Part shown: positions 1-19,752 of the stretch, piece by piece
How the letters are laid out: every line of letters starts with the position of its first letter
Numbering within the stretch: position 1 is the stretch's first letter
From: Candidatus Aminicenantota bacterium
GTDB taxonomy: Bacteria; Acidobacteriota; Aminicenantia; Aminicenantales; Aminicenantaceae
Reading direction: 5' to 3'
Assembly: GCA_021162615.1 (NCBI GenBank)
Contig: JAGGYH010000097.1
Span: 1 to 33,025 of the forward strand
DNA: 33,025 nt
Notes under the pieces: model-generated
Seen by the model: the letters and a program-made list of their open reading frames with translations, nothing else
Databases searched by the model: none
What the model was told of the DNA's origin: nothing
Translations under genes and position numbers: made by a program

Positions 1-87
1 GTTACAGGGTACTCGCGGTGAAGGACCACAGCTTCGCACCCTGTGCCTCGCATCTGCAGCAACCTCGACTTGTGAATAATCCAGGTG
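1..87. repeat. 87-bp direct repeat, copy 1
   Basis: Identical base for base to 267-353; the copy starts at the window edge and may extend upstream. Its 5' half can form a stem-loop: ACAGGGT (4-10) pairs with ACCCTGT (38-44), with a possible inner stem GAAG/CTTC (20-23, 32-35). No convincing protein is encoded; the ORFs across it lack ribosome binding sites. It is more G+C-rich than the spacer that follows. Function is unknown; a dispersed intergenic repeat or structured RNA element is the simplest reading. Confidence 0.9.
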
Positions 88-102
88 CACCTAAATTATT
101 CA
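73..102. repeat. Near-perfect palindrome at the end of repeat copy 1
   Basis: TGAATAAT (73-80) and ATTATTCA (95-102) are reverse complements, and the centre AGGTGCACCT (83-92) is itself palindromic; only CC/AA at the junctions fails to pair. The left half lies in the 87-bp repeat and the right half in the spacer, so copy 2, which continues into different sequence, cannot form it. It could be a hairpin, a protein site or the scar of a repeat junction. Confidence 0.7.
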
Positions 103-222
103 TAAAAAAATGGCGATGAGCAATTTTTTGTTTTGATATCAAGGAACTGCATACTTTTAAAAAAAATGACAACTGAAATATTTTTATTTGTTTTTACTTT
201 CATTTTAATCGCCATTTTTTTA
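103..222. repeat. AT-rich spacer bounded by 15-bp perfect inverted repeats
   Basis: TAAAAAAATGGCGAT (103-117) is the exact reverse complement of 208-222. The 90 bases between are strongly AT-rich with no credible gene. Just beyond lies a 9-bp tandem duplication, ATAGGCAAG at 227-235 and 236-244. The arms resemble the ends of a small non-autonomous element, but I see no target-site duplication, so a transposon origin is unproven. Confidence 0.6.
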
Positions 223-266
223 CCATATAGGCAAGATAGGCAAGCCGATCTCACTGCATCTGCTTT

Positions 267-353
267 GTTACAGGGTACTCGCGGTGAAGGACCACAGCTT
301 CGCACCCTGTGCCTCGCATCTGCAGCAACCTCGACTTGTGAATAATCCAGGTG
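267..353. repeat. 87-bp direct repeat, copy 2
   Basis: Second identical copy of 1-87, offset by 266 bases. It ends 24 bases before the ATG of the first gene (378), so if the run is transcribed from upstream this copy would lie in its 5' leader. It has the same predicted stem-loop (ACAGGGT/ACCCTGT). Perfect identity suggests recent duplication, gene conversion or selection on the sequence. Confidence 0.9.
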
Positions 354-377: not shown

Positions 378-1199
378 ATGAAGAAAGCTAAAGGATCATT
401 AAAGGTCATTTTTATTATTTCCTTTATATTTTTATTGGTGTCATCAGTTTCTGCCCAGGGAAAAATAGAATTCGGTTTTCACTATTCAGGTTGGAGCATG
501 AATGTACTTCGCGGGCTTATTGAGGGCATGCTGGAAGACGGCCTGGAGTCGGCTTTAAAGGATGATTTTCTTTCGGATATCCAGGGTGACTATCCTTATT
601 TAGAAGAGGAAAGTTATGAACAGAATGTTTCTTTTGATTCGAGCGGTGACAACTATGGATTTGAATTGCGTTGGTACCCAGGCGGGCACGACGGCTCTTT
701 CAGTTTAGGCCTTTCCGTGGAGAAAACGACCATGAGGGTGGCGCTAACGGATATATCTGCACAAATGGACCTTAATCCGGATGCTTTTTTTGAGGCCGGG
801 GGAAGTGCGGAATTTCTTATCAAGCCTCTTTCCTTTCATTTGAGCTTCCGCTGGGATCTGTTCCCTTCCTCTAGGATCCGTCCGTATTTTACGTTTGGTT
901 TTGGCGCGGCCACAGCAGCGGCGTTGGAAAACGCTGAGCTCAGCTATTCCTATTCAGGTGAACTCAATATCCAGAACCAGATACATGAATCCTATTCTGA
1001 AAGCGAGACCAAAACCCTAGGGGAGATCGTTGAGGAAATAGAAGATGATGATGAGGAGTTCACTCTGCCCGGATTTTTTCCTTTTATCCAGTTGAATTTG
1101 GGACTTAAAGGAGAAATAACAAGGAATGTCTATCTGCTTTTTGATGCGGGTATCTGGAATGGATTTATGCTGAGAGGAGGACTGGCCGTAAGGATATAA
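378..1199 (+). CDS. Outer-membrane beta-barrel-like protein, 273 aa
   Basis: The ORF track starts at GTG 351, but ATG 378 follows a GGAGGG ribosome site by about five bases and opens directly into a signal peptide (MKKAKGSLKV... ending VSSVSAQ), so 378 is preferred. The mature protein alternates polar and aromatic/hydrophobic residues as expected of transmembrane beta strands (FGFELRWYPG, FHLSFRWDLF, YFTFGFGAAT) and finishes with a strand-like end, GGLAVRI. An acidic stretch, EEIEDDDEEF, probably sits in a loop. No specific family or substrate is recognised. It is the first gene of the long + strand run and lies 30 bases before the M28 peptidase; a second barrel protein occurs later in the same run. 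Envelope location is well supported; the role is unknown. Confidence 0.75.
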   Translation: MKKAKGSLKVIFIISFIFLLVSSVSAQGKIEFGFHYSGWSMNVLRGLIEGMLEDGLESALKDDFLSDIQGDYPYLEEESYEQNVSFDSSGDNYGFELRWYPGGHDGSFSLGLSVEKTTMRVALTDISAQMDLNPDAFFEAGGSAEFLIKPLSFHLSFRWDLFPSSRIRPYFTFGFGAATAAALENAELSYSYSGELNIQNQIHESYSESETKTLGEIVEEIEDDDEEFTLPGFFPFIQLNLGLKGEITRNVYLLFDAGIWNGFMLRGGLAVRI

Positions 1200-14658: not shown

Positions 14659-15309
14659 TTATAGTACACATAAAGAACCGTTTGAGTCAATTATTTGTTG
14701 ACGCTTCACGATTTGAGAGGACGTAGAGCCAAGAGCTTTGCGGATGCCGATCTCTTTGGTCCTCTGTTCTGCCATATATGCAGACAGGCCGAAAAGCCCT
14801 ATGCAGGCGATGATGATGACAAAAACCGCAATAGCGATCATGATGTAGACATACAGGATGTTTCCGTTGGGTTTTATCTCACTAGATAGGTGTGATTTGA
14901 GATGGATATCTTGGATAGGCTGGAGAAAATAATTGTAACCATTCCCCGCCCGAGTGTAATCTTCAAAAGATATTCCTGTTTCAGCTTGTATTTGACCGGC
15001 TGCGTATTGTTCCACAAGAGCCGGCATTTTTTGTTCAATGACCTCCGGCGAAACACCTTCTTTTAAAAGCACATAGGTGTGGACAGAAAAGCTCACATAA
15101 TTGGGCTGGCGGTCAAAGCCAATGGGCTCTAATGCACCTAAAAAGTCAAATCCGCATTTTTAACACTCTGGTCATGTCTTCGATTTCTGGAAAATCTGTT
15201 TTCATGGCGGGGCCTATGCCTGAGGGAATTAAAGCATGACATTTATTAAAGAAGAGGATTTATCTTTCCAGAAATTTCTGAATGCGACCTTGATGAGGTT
15301 TTTAATCAT
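14659..15309 (-). pseudogene. Decayed FtsX/MacB-type ABC permease
   Basis: Reading the minus strand from ATG 15309, with an AAGGAG site just upstream, gives MIKNLIKVAFRNFWKDKSSS, the classic N-terminus of large FtsX-family permeases. The frame then breaks and mid-protein segments follow in other frames: IPSGIGPAMKTDFPEIEDMT, then FLGALEPIGFDRQPNYVSFS and the 145-aa track ORF ending YMAEQRTKEIGIRKALGSTS. The first transmembrane helix, most of the periplasmic domain and the last two helices are gone. There are at least two frame breaks plus 5' and 3' deletions, so this is a relic, not a gene. It starts 18 bases after the DUF5916 stop. The complete form would have exported a substrate with a separate ATPase. 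Confidence 0.85.
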
Positions 15310-15327: not shown

Positions 15328-17691
15328 TTAATGGGTCCAGGCATATCCGATTTTAACAAAAAATGTTCGGTCTGTCTGGGTTATATCAAGGCTTGTCATC
15401 CCCAGATAATTGTCCGAATAGCCGATAAAAACAACAGTCTGGGGGTTGAGTTTATAAGAAAAGAGAAACTGTGTGAATACGGTCTGAGTTTTAGGAGAGA
15501 CCGGAAAAACATAAAGTTCAGGATTTCGAGTCACATCAAGATATTGAACAATCGCCCGTAAAAATGTGCGAACACTGAAGTTGTATACGAATTTTATTTG
15601 TGACAGATTGGCTGTAAAAATCTTATTCTGATCACAGGTGAGCCGCTGGAATGTATGCTGGAGATTTAGATTGACATGTTGACCTAAGCTGAATTCAACA
15701 AAAGGAAGAAGATTCAGTCCCATTGCCTGCCGGGCATTATTGTAATCTATTGAGTCCCCATACAGAGCGGTCATGTTTAAGCGCACTCCTCCAAACGGCT
15801 TTATTTCAGTGACAATTACTGCCTGGTTCAGGTCATAATATTCAGATAAATAGAGCTGCCTTGTGTTTTTATACTGCAAGAGCACGGTGGACTGTAAGGG
15901 GCCATTGTACTGTGTCTGAATGCCAATTTCCCTGTCCGTCATATCTCCCTCATGATTATAGATGACATTTCCCCGCATACTCAATAGTATGTTCGTAAAC
16001 CAGTCTCTGCCTTTTCCCCAAAATCTGTAGCCAAGAAATCCGGACCCGCCTCTTAGGTCCACTCTGGGGACATATCCGTAATCGGCCCGAAAATTTGGAT
16101 TAAGGTCATTATAGTTAAAAAAGTACAGCCAGTTTCTTCCAATACTTTGGAATTCAGCTGTGATGGCATCTCCGGATAAAGGAGCTTTTTTTTGGCTGAA
16201 TATGTTTGAGGTTTGTTCTGAGTAGTCGGTTTCGGAATGAAGGTACTGAAAGCTGATGCTTTTGGTCTGGGAAAGCCGGAAAAATCCGTCAAATCCCGCC
16301 ACATGATTGTAGTAGTCATCAGAAACGCGGCCAGTGTAAAGAACTCCGATATGAGATGTCTGTCCTACATCCCTGCGGAATCGAAAAACCCCGCTGGCTA
16401 CCTCCTGATCGATGGAAGCAGATGAAGAGCCTTGGTTAGAGGGAAAAAGGAGATTATTGACTCTATCAAAGGTTCCAAAAACACCGAAGGCATTTTTCCC
16501 GATTTTACCGGTCAGTTTGAGTCCCCCCATAGGGTCAGCTACAGTCCGCGTAAAAACAGCCTCAATGGGAGTCAGGAAAAAATCAGCTCCCTCCAGAAAA
16601 AAGGGCCTTTTTTCCGGATACCGGATGGCAAACCGCGTGTTGACTTCGAGTTCTCTGATATCCGCTTCTATTTGTGAAAAATCAGGATTGACAGCGGCGT
16701 TGAGCATCAAATTAGGGGTAATGCCCCACCTGGCTGTGATCCCCGGATTAGGATCGATGTCCCCGTTTCCCATAGGGCTTTCAGGATTTGCAGGAAAATC
16801 GTCTCTTTTGTCTGTCCGGATTGTGGTCAGGGTCGGGTCAAGTTCGATGTTGGCTCCCGGGGATATTCCCTGCATTCCTGTTATCTTATTGAACTGGCAG
16901 ATGATACAGGTGATGTCTCTTTCTCTGGGGTGGGATGTCATGCGGTGGCGGACACTTCTTGGGTAGGACCGCTCAATGCTGAATCCCCATGTCTGGACTT
17001 CTGAGGTCTTTGGGAAACGGAGCTGGTTGAATGGGATCGCTATCTCAACGGCCCATCCCCAATCTGTGATTTTGCATGCTGAGGCCCAAATAGCATCCCA
17101 GGAAAAATCTTCATATCCCTCTGATTCACTGAAGTTAGCATCAGCTTGGACTCCCAGCGGATTGGCGCGGAACTGAAAGCCCCGTCGTTCGTCATTAAAC
17201 GTGTCGATCATAAAGCTGATGTGGTCATCCTGGATAAACGTGTCCATGGAATCGCGGTCCATAAGATGGGCCCGAATTTTTGAAGGATCCGGGTCATAGC
17301 AGCGCACAGCTACATAGAAGTAATGATTGTCATAAGTTACCAGACAATCGGTATCCACTGGTGCGGGAATGTTGTCACCGGGAAGCCATTCATAGGGAAG
17401 CTTGATGACAACCGCATTCTTCCATGCGTTTTCATCCAAGCTGCCATCTATTTTTATCTCAGAAGCGGCTTTGGTTACCAAATAATCTCTGGTCTCCCTT
17501 TGTTTTTGGGGGTTTGTTTCGCCGGGGGAAGTTAGATTGAATGGGAAAATTTTGTTTGAATCCGCATATGAATGAGCAAAAACAAGAAAACAGCATGATA
17601 ATATTAAAGAGAACCTGGTTATTATTTTAATGATGAAACAGTTGTGTTTCCAAAATATTTTCGGATCATATTTGCTGTTATTGATAATCAT
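15328..17691 (-). CDS. DUF5916 protein with CBM9-like N-terminal domain
   Basis: 787 aa. A signal peptide (ending about AHSYADS) is followed by a carbohydrate-binding-family-9-like domain (KIDGSLDENAWKNAV, TYDNHYFYVAVRCYD, RGFQFRANPLGVQAD, WAVEIAIPFNQLRF) and then the long DUF5916 region (PDFSQIEADIRELEVNTRF, YPEKRPFFLEGADFF), which ends in many strand-like segments typical of an outer-membrane barrel. The ATG at 17691 has AGAAGGA nine bases upstream. A paralogue sits at 24439-26676. Members are abundant in Bacteroidota and Acidobacteriota; substrate is unknown, possibly a glycan or other polymer. It heads a minus-strand run with the decayed permease and the MEMO gene. Confidence 0.9.
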   Translation of the reverse strand: MIINNSKYDPKIFWKHNCFIIKIITRFSLILSCCFLVFAHSYADSNKIFPFNLTSPGETNPQKQRETRDYLVTKAASEIKIDGSLDENAWKNAVVIKLPYEWLPGDNIPAPVDTDCLVTYDNHYFYVAVRCYDPDPSKIRAHLMDRDSMDTFIQDDHISFMIDTFNDERRGFQFRANPLGVQADANFSESEGYEDFSWDAIWASACKITDWGWAVEIAIPFNQLRFPKTSEVQTWGFSIERSYPRSVRHRMTSHPRERDITCIICQFNKITGMQGISPGANIELDPTLTTIRTDKRDDFPANPESPMGNGDIDPNPGITARWGITPNLMLNAAVNPDFSQIEADIRELEVNTRFAIRYPEKRPFFLEGADFFLTPIEAVFTRTVADPMGGLKLTGKIGKNAFGVFGTFDRVNNLLFPSNQGSSSASIDQEVASGVFRFRRDVGQTSHIGVLYTGRVSDDYYNHVAGFDGFFRLSQTKSISFQYLHSETDYSEQTSNIFSQKKAPLSGDAITAEFQSIGRNWLYFFNYNDLNPNFRADYGYVPRVDLRGGSGFLGYRFWGKGRDWFTNILLSMRGNVIYNHEGDMTDREIGIQTQYNGPLQSTVLLQYKNTRQLYLSEYYDLNQAVIVTEIKPFGGVRLNMTALYGDSIDYNNARQAMGLNLLPFVEFSLGQHVNLNLQHTFQRLTCDQNKIFTANLSQIKFVYNFSVRTFLRAIVQYLDVTRNPELYVFPVSPKTQTVFTQFLFSYKLNPQTVVFIGYSDNYLGMTSLDITQTDRTFFVKIGYAWTH

Positions 17692-18333: not shown

Positions 18334-18603
18334 GTGAAACGGGCCGAGGTCGAGCCTGGGCATCCGATGATTCTGATCGTTCGGCAGTGTGAACTTCTGA
18401 ATTTACCGCGGTCATCGTTTTATTGCGGTTCTTGCGGCGGGGACGGATACAACCTGCTGCCCATGCGTTTGATCGATGAAGACTTCACGAGACATCCGTT
18501 CTGCGGGGAAGGCCTGGATCACGGCTTCGTATTCCTGACCGTGGTCATGGACCGGCTTTCTCGCTATGTTCTCTCTTTGAGGTTGTGGTTTAACATGGAC
18601 CGC
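18334..18603 (+). mobile_element. Internally deleted IS3-family transposase (OrfB) remnant
   Basis: The + strand ORF 18292-18624 reads VEPGHPMILIVRQCELLNLP-RSSFY then LLPMRLIDEDFTRHPF, the familiar start of IS3-group OrfB (RQCELLGLxRSSYYY ... RLIDEQYTRHPFYG). Straight after CGE it jumps to HGFVFLTVVMDRLSRYVLSL and FNMD, which in intact transposases lies deep in the rve/DDE domain (GFVYLTAVMDWxSRYVLSWRLSNTMD). Roughly the middle third is missing, as are everything after NMD and the D-D-E residues. No terminal inverted repeats were found. The remnant is antisense to, and overlaps, the 3' end of the serine hydrolase gene. Confidence 0.8.
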
Positions 18604-19752
18604 CGGCAGTATATATCCGTATAGGAACTCAAAAATTCTTCTCTTTTGTTCTTCCGACTGTGTGTCCGCGTTGACCGCCACGACCATGTCATGTTCAGGC
18701 ACGATAAAGATATATTGACCCTTTGCTCCCCTGGCTGCATAGATATATTGTTGTTCGTCTCCCTGCGGATCCGGCCTTTGAATCCACCAGAGATATCCGT
18801 ATCCCACGATATCCTGACCTGTGTTTCCAAAATCGACGTGCATTTCAAAGGATTCTCGAATCCAGTCTTCCGGCACAACCTGTTCCCCTTCCCACTTTCC
18901 TTTATTCAGATAGAGTAATCCGAAACGCGCCATATCCCGTGTTCTGAGAGCCAGGCCGCCGCCTGTATGGGGGTGTCCTTCCTGATTTTTAACCCAGAAT
19001 TTCTTTTCAATTCCTAGAGATTTAAAGAGAGTTTGTTCCGCGTATACATCTGCGTGCATTCCGGTGCGGCTTTTCAAGATTGCGGAAAGCAGAATCACTC
19101 CGCCGCTGTCATAGTTGAAATTCTTTCCCGGTTCGCCGGCCATAGGACGATTCAGATAGAATTTGTCCCAGCCCGTGGGTGTCCGGTTCAATCGATGATG
19201 AGGGGAATCCTGCCCATTTTCATGATAATCGACTCCGCTCCTCATGGTCAGGAGATCTTTCAAGCGTATGGAGGCTTTGCGTTCATCCATGTGAGCAATA
19301 TCTTTCATGTCGGGAAAAAAATCGAGGATTTTCTCGTCCACACCCTTGATGTCTCCTCGGGCAATAGCTATTCCGATCAAGGCGGAAGTAAAGCTCTTGG
19401 TCACAGACTGTAGGATATGAAGGCGCTCTCCATTCCAATTGTTGAAATACTCCTCTACGACCAAACAGCCATGGCGGACAACCAGGAGGCTTTGAATCCG
19501 GGGATAGCGTTGTCCCTTACGTATCAGGTCGACCAGTTCAGCCAACTTCCCCGAATCAAGTCCCTGCTCCGCCGGAGAAGATATTTTCCATTGGAACGAG
19601 GATGAGTTAGGTCGCGCGGGAGAGCTTGTCGCTAATTCCCGGCCGCCTATGAAGCAGGCCATGGCGACGGACAGACCGAGGACGTGGAGCAAGGAATAAA
19701 CGGACTGCTTTCGCAGATGACGAAAAGCCATTCTGACGTGGGTTTTAAACAT
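18412..19752 (-). CDS. Chimeric serine hydrolase (beta-lactamase family) with permease-derived N-terminus
   Basis: 446 aa in three parts. Residues 1-36 (MFKTHVRMAFRHLRKQSVYS, LGLSVAMACFIGG) are the N-terminus and first helix of an FtsX-type permease. Residues about 55-385 form a class C beta-lactamase/6-aminohexanoate-hydrolase-like domain with S116-V-T-K119, Y214 in NYDSGG, a later GAKGQYIF motif and the typical end IFEFLYGYILPAV. Residues 386-446 are read from the antisense strand of the IS3 remnant and match nothing in the family. GGAGGC lies five bases before the ATG, so the frame is translatable. The permease helix could act as a signal anchor, leaving the hydrolase in the periplasm. Likely an esterase or amidase; antibiotic hydrolysis should not be assumed. 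The region appears richer in G+C than its neighbours. Confidence 0.85.
   Translation of the reverse strand: MFKTHVRMAFRHLRKQSVYSLLHVLGLSVAMACFIGGRELATSSPARPNSSSFQWKISSPAEQGLDSGKLAELVDLIRKGQRYPRIQSLLVVRHGCLVVEEYFNNWNGERLHILQSVTKSFTSALIGIAIARGDIKGVDEKILDFFPDMKDIAHMDERKASIRLKDLLTMRSGVDYHENGQDSPHHRLNRTPTGWDKFYLNRPMAGEPGKNFNYDSGGVILLSAILKSRTGMHADVYAEQTLFKSLGIEKKFWVKNQEGHPHTGGGLALRTRDMARFGLLYLNKGKWEGEQVVPEDWIRESFEMHVDFGNTGQDIVGYGYLWWIQRPDPQGDEQQYIYAARGAKGQYIFIVPEHDMVVAVNADTQSEEQKRRIFEFLYGYILPAVHVKPQPQRENIARKPVHDHGQEYEAVIQAFPAERMSREVFIDQTHGQQVVSVPAARTAIKR

Follow-up and report, generated by a model that had tools for sequence, protein, structure and literature searches.

Small nonautonomous transposons are usually viewed as decaying passengers in which the ends alone matter. 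The element reported here resembles the bacterial MITEs NEMIS, RUP, ERIC, and Nezha (reviewed in PMC3733652), which likewise have terminal repeats, target duplications, no coding capacity, and many copies and are structured when transcribed; it differs from them in carrying a 98-nt hairpin that is kept by compensatory change phylum-wide, in elements with unrelated terminal repeats. REP and REPIN sequences with their RAYTs also share several of its properties, namely, high-copy hairpins, strand-asymmetric GT pairs, and occasional inverted pairs, whereas the present hairpin is longer, is accompanied by target duplications, and does not lie beside Y1 genes. Structured RNAs of the same phylum, Acido-1 and Acido-Lenti-1, are represented in Rfam (PMC2864571), in contrast to the present hairpin, which matches no Rfam family. 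With the IS1380 family the element has in common terminal repeats nearly identical to those of IS1380 copies in relatives, YTAR-like targets, and CTAG duplications, the difference being that the element has no transposase gene and the insertion sequence (IS) copies have no hairpin. On balance, and with moderate confidence, we read the repeat described below as the end of a Candidatus Aminicenantes MITE moved by an IS1380-type transposase in trans and equipped with an accessory hairpin conserved across the phylum.

The repeat pair and its contig

The window, that is, the whole 33,025-nt stretch of DNA that was analyzed, is the entire contig C45, one of 146 contigs in the MAG, and the contig and the window begin at the same base. 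An exact 87-nt direct-repeat family of two copies (1 to 87 and 267 to 353) was confirmed in it; as the sequence-only reading had stated, all 87 positions agree (100% identity) at a spacing of 266 nt, and a chance origin of the match is excluded. Because the contig start cuts copy 1, 87 nt is a lower bound on the length of the repeat, and the identity may continue past the contig start. Contig ends elsewhere in the assembly overlap exactly by 127 bases, which gives an assembler k of 127, not 87, and a k-mer artifact was therefore rejected as the source of the repeat length. The 87-mer is the right end of a longer element and not a natural unit, and the window holds a tandem pair made up of the right end of copy 1, TGCA, copy 2, and TGGA, with the following features:

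1-85, no strand: right end of element copy 1, identical to 267-351; the remainder lies beyond the contig start
1-72, minus strand: truncated covariance-model match within the right end of copy 1
86-89, no strand: TGCA, which separates the two copies; as the left flank of copy 2 it differs at one base from the TGGA on the right and is a candidate 4-bp target duplication
90-351, plus strand: element copy 2, MITE-like, 262 bp; boundaries defined by aligning the copies, whose usual length is 253 bp
90-105, plus strand: left terminal inverted repeat of copy 2, CCTAAATTATTCATAA
227-244, plus strand: 9-bp tandem duplication, ATAGGCAAG twice; opens a 9-base gap in alignments with nearly all other copies
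241-338, minus strand: conserved 98-nt hairpin of four helix blocks (113.9 bits, -52.0 kcal/mol, z -6.7)
336-351, minus strand: right terminal inverted repeat of copy 2, CCTGGATTATTCACAA in the minus-strand reading
352-355, no strand: TGGA flanking copy 2, candidate right target duplication
378-1199, plus strand: first downstream gene, likely an outer-membrane barrel protein; ATG 26 bp past the element end

Copy 2 exceeds the usual length because the 9-bp unit ATAGGCAAG is doubled in it, other copies having one unit, and the ORF list contains no ORF of at least 100 amino acids within it. The sequence between the two repeats had been considered unrelated to them; this did not hold, as the left half of copy 2 makes up most of it. 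The identity of the two copies had also been taken to imply recent copying or strong constraint. The identity is exact, but it requires no special constraint, because two other copies, on contigs C118 and C103, are identical to the window across the 111-bp right end and ten more are 99% identical over it.

The gene at 378 to 1199 has a ribosome-binding site, GGACGGAGGG, and its start is placed at 351 by the ORF finder. The run of genes that follows copy 2 had been described as one of peptidases and proved to be mixed: M28, S9, and M14 peptidases are present, but so are a dehydrogenase and a phosphoesterase (gene names were read off the translations, not from a domain search). Farther along the window, on the minus strand (14659 to 15096, 15328 to 17691, and 18412 to 19752), the translations show an ORF with an FtsX/MacB permease-like start and a beta-lactamase-like hydrolase continuation; a putative permease C-terminal fragment lies beyond the gene at 15328 to 17691, and a permease gene seems to have been interrupted or fused here.

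The element, its copies, and its probable transposase

It is well supported that the repeat is part of a nonautonomous transposable element (MITE) of approximately 253 bp with 16-bp terminal inverted repeats and target duplications of 4 to 5 bp. Aligned copies define a unit of 251 to 254 bp, uniform in length in other genera too, which starts with CCTGAMYTATTCATAAAAAAATGG and ends with CTCGACTTGTGAATAATCCAGG; the two ends are therefore inverted repeats. When 18 distinct elements were examined for target duplications, exact 4-bp duplications flanked 8 of them (shuffled mean, 3.3) and exact 5-bp duplications a further 2 (shuffled mean, 0.1), giving 10 exact at either length; in most of the remaining elements the flanks were one base apart. 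The exact pairs include CTAG, CTAA, ATAA, TGAA, TTATA, TAAAA, and CCAG, and CTAG/CTAG and CCAG/CCAG duplications were found in other genera; the duplication of copy 2 in the window (TGCA/TGGA) is imperfect. The family thus has the terminal inverted repeats, the target site duplication, and the short, noncoding, high-copy character of bacterial MITEs, and an autonomous parent with the same ends was found in the relatives G034 and, more distantly, G266, not in this MAG.

The suggestion that the repeat might be dispersed in the genome was borne out. When positions 1 to 353 were used as the query against the same genome, at least 41 matches were returned, of which the best 40 were scored, nearly all of them over window positions 89 to 352 at 82 to 97% identity. 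The right-end 22-mer occurs 90 times with up to three mismatches in this genome (control, 0), and the terminal repeat has 166 matches in it (reversed control, 0). From these pattern counts and searches listing best matches, the genome is estimated to carry about 90 to a hundred copies. Related genomes were searched as well, as had been proposed, and 37 of 60 contained matches, nearly all belonging to the same family; many of the 37 had at least a dozen matches, and relatives of the element were found in most genomes of the family. The exact module pattern was identified in 86 stretches of GTDB genomes, all from Candidatus Aminicenantes, and plasmid and viral collections gave no match. Elements at four loci (L040, L042, L044, and L046) have the usual left half and another right half after ATAGGCAAGCCGAT and are mosaics with one end in common.

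Relatives contain IS1380 transposases (PF13701). A full-length IS1380 transposase of G034 (522 bits; L104) stands between CCTGAATAATTCATAAAAAAA and CCTGATTTATTCATAA, ends that are identical at 19 of 21 bases to the left ends of the miniature elements. The same ends enclose a piece of the transposase at L117, a deletion remnant of 361 bp. The IS1380 copy of G034 lacks an exact target duplication; two IS1380 copies in the distant G266 are each flanked by a CTAG duplication (CTAG-CCCGGATTATGCATAA...CCGGG-CTAG). Neither the element nor this MAG encodes a PF13701 transposase, the search of the MAG having given no hit, which could be due to the loss of repeats in MAGs; likewise, no IS1380 transposase was found in most of the hairpin-bearing genomes tested. 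Judging from the shared ends, which are good though indirect evidence, the IS1380 family is the likely mover of the element.

A conserved hairpin inside the element

The 98-nt module adjoining the right terminal repeat forms one long hairpin on the minus strand, where the predicted folding energy of positions 241 to 338 is -52.0 kcal/mol (z -6.7), compared with -32.8 kcal/mol on the plus strand. The stem ACAGGGT/ACCCTGT noted in the sequence-only reading is real; it forms just the middle helix of this hairpin, which starts outside the 87-mer, and it had been read on the wrong strand. The alignment of the hairpin comprises 67 copies from about 20 genera, with 31 pairs and 2,075 cells, and the designated structure is paired in 96.5% of the cells, compared with 89.3% in shuffles and 25 to 42% in slid controls. 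Compensatory double changes occur at 19 of the 31 pairs, in 156 cells, a result reached in 0 of 500 shuffles. Individual pairs illustrate the changes: one is GC in 34 copies, CG in 19, and AU in 4, a second is AU in 40 and GC in 21, and a third is UA in 31 and CG in 21. Covariation had been named beforehand as a check on the fold, and compensatory changes beyond controls, as looked for in a structured RNA, were obtained. The conserved structure of the hairpin is therefore well supported, pairing rather than sequence being kept across genera. A fold of the plus strand as given was rejected, being weaker in energy and paired in 89.5% of cells, as was RNAalifold used alone, which recovered only nine pairs, on the plus strand.

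Each of the 62 model sequences has its better fold on the minus strand, and with DNA energy parameters the same strand is favored in 60 of 62. Among non-Watson-Crick cells, G-U in the minus-strand reading outnumbers C-A by 96 to 23, an asymmetry expected of a folded single strand and not of double-stranded DNA. Most likely, the hairpin acts as RNA from the minus strand of the window, as the pattern of tolerated mismatches suggests; a role as single-stranded DNA may also be considered, given that the favored strand is the same under DNA parameters. The conserved core, GCAGATGCRAGGC ... AACGMAGCAGATGC, contains two internal loops of mirrored sequence, in which tandem G.A would be present. No Rfam match was found on the hairpin at about 25 loci, and a literature search for the motif sequence returned nothing relevant. 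Two hairpins, at L254 and L277 (G008), share an apical-loop insertion of approximately 30 bases that is itself an inverted repeat (GGGGTCAG...CTGACCC).

A covariance model (R1) gave hits in 24 of 297 genomes of the phylum, many of them multicopy, with repeated copies in G312, G286, G306, G239, and G177. In this pan-phylum set, 94.0% of cells are paired and all 31 pairs have double changes, values that lean toward the model because the alignment was fitted to it. The carriers are unlike: elements of G306 are 238 bp, with ends GGGTTCGCGCAA and TTA or TAA duplications, and those of G286 are 176 bp, with ends CCTGG(A/C)TTTCTCACC (CCTGGATTTCTCACC) and exact CTAG duplications in two copies, yet both contain the same hairpin. 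In G157, the terminal sequence of the hairpin element was found with the hairpin at L279 and without it beside an IS1380 gene at L304. These unlike carriers and the G157 case suggest that the hairpin is a separable module whose gain or loss does not depend on the ends. At L304 the terminal sequence lies about 150 to 260 bases downstream of the IS1380 gene, an arrangement suggestive of a module that was precisely gained or lost. Hairpins also occur as three tandem copies on one strand (L252, in G312:C5) and as close inverted pairs (L258, L267, L271, and L278).

Alternative readings and a proposed mechanism

We consider it unlikely that this is a REP-like system, in which the hairpin would be recognized as single-stranded DNA and moved by a Y1 (HUH, RAYT/TIRYT) transposase, with the terminal repeats being secondary. 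Of 17 genomes that bear the hairpin, 15 have Y1_Tnp genes, the present genome among them, but G251 and G157 gave no Y1 hit. RAYT relatives with flanking inverted repeats have been described in Acidobacteria (PMC3733652), and the four loci with close inverted hairpin pairs recall REP dimers; at 98 nt, however, the hairpin is larger than the 20 to 40 bp of REPs. The favored strand, being the same under DNA parameters, would suit a single-stranded DNA substrate, whereas target duplications of 4 to 5 bp are, to our knowledge, made by no HUH enzyme. A hairpin lies near only 1 of 24 Y1 loci with flanks (some of these loci share a gene region), and its identification as a RAYT-flanking repeat was rejected. 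Two Y1 genes of the REP-associated type in this genome are at G000:C84:50614-50955 and G000:C102:7820-8149, and a remnant of the hairpin element lies approximately 1.3 kb from the first.

That the tandem pair is an assembly artifact, a misjoin of two high-copy repeat copies at a contig end, is quite unlikely. Copy 1 does lie at a contig start, and at least 16 of the 41 matches listed in the same-genome search are at contig ends, but with overlaps of 127 and not 87 bases the junction within positions 1 to 127 should consist of real k-mers, and tandem hairpins occur elsewhere, as in the three of L252. The element family is real with or without an artifactual tandem pair.

The reading first proposed, a host family of cis-regulatory or small RNAs at many genes and not mainly a transposable element, is very unlikely. 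It would accommodate the strong covariation and the mostly intergenic position of the copies (six modules are inside an ORF), but not the terminal repeats, the target duplications, or the presence of about 90 copies. No constant neighbor gene was found among the ten nearest genes, the neighbors in distant genomes are unrelated (CTP synthase, M24 peptidase, SIS, and aminotransferase), and gene orientation around the copies (28/26/20/12) has no strong bias; together with the small number of copies in ORFs, this argues against a dedicated single-pathway regulator. That pairing is kept merely as a DNA inverted repeat, either a cruciform or a terminator of neighboring genes, would agree with the length of the repeat and its frequent position between genes but is highly improbable, as a double-stranded requirement would not yield the G-U excess over C-A on one strand and no T run follows the hairpin.

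For the reading that we prefer, a MITE with an accessory hairpin, the following mechanism is proposed. Copies would move as DNA when a transposase supplied in trans, most probably an IS1380-family enzyme, acts on the 16-bp terminal repeats (CCTGRATTATTCAY...), and insertion would occur at YTAR-like sites with duplication of 4 to 5 bp. The tolerance of G-U on one strand suggests that the hairpin is transcribed as minus-strand RNA. In the weakest steps of the scheme, which make the hairpin a protein-binding RNA fold that may benefit the element, a protein would bind the conserved internal loops (GCGAGG/ACGAAGC, tandem G.A), and this binding would aid the spread or tolerance of the element. A broader view is possible and is offered only tentatively: the hairpin would represent a previously undescribed class of structured RNA, a portable transposon accessory read by a transposase or host factor and swapped among families with unrelated ends throughout Acidobacteriota.

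The element accounts for many of the contig breaks in this Aminicenantes assembly. That it is a mobile element of an ordinary kind with an unusual, conserved fold is well supported, and here the interior of such an element is kept as a base-paired fold across a phylum, within elements of differing ends. Such conservation implies that the hairpin has some role to play, for the element or for the host, and its 98-nt sequence provides a defined handle for seeking a protein that may bind it.
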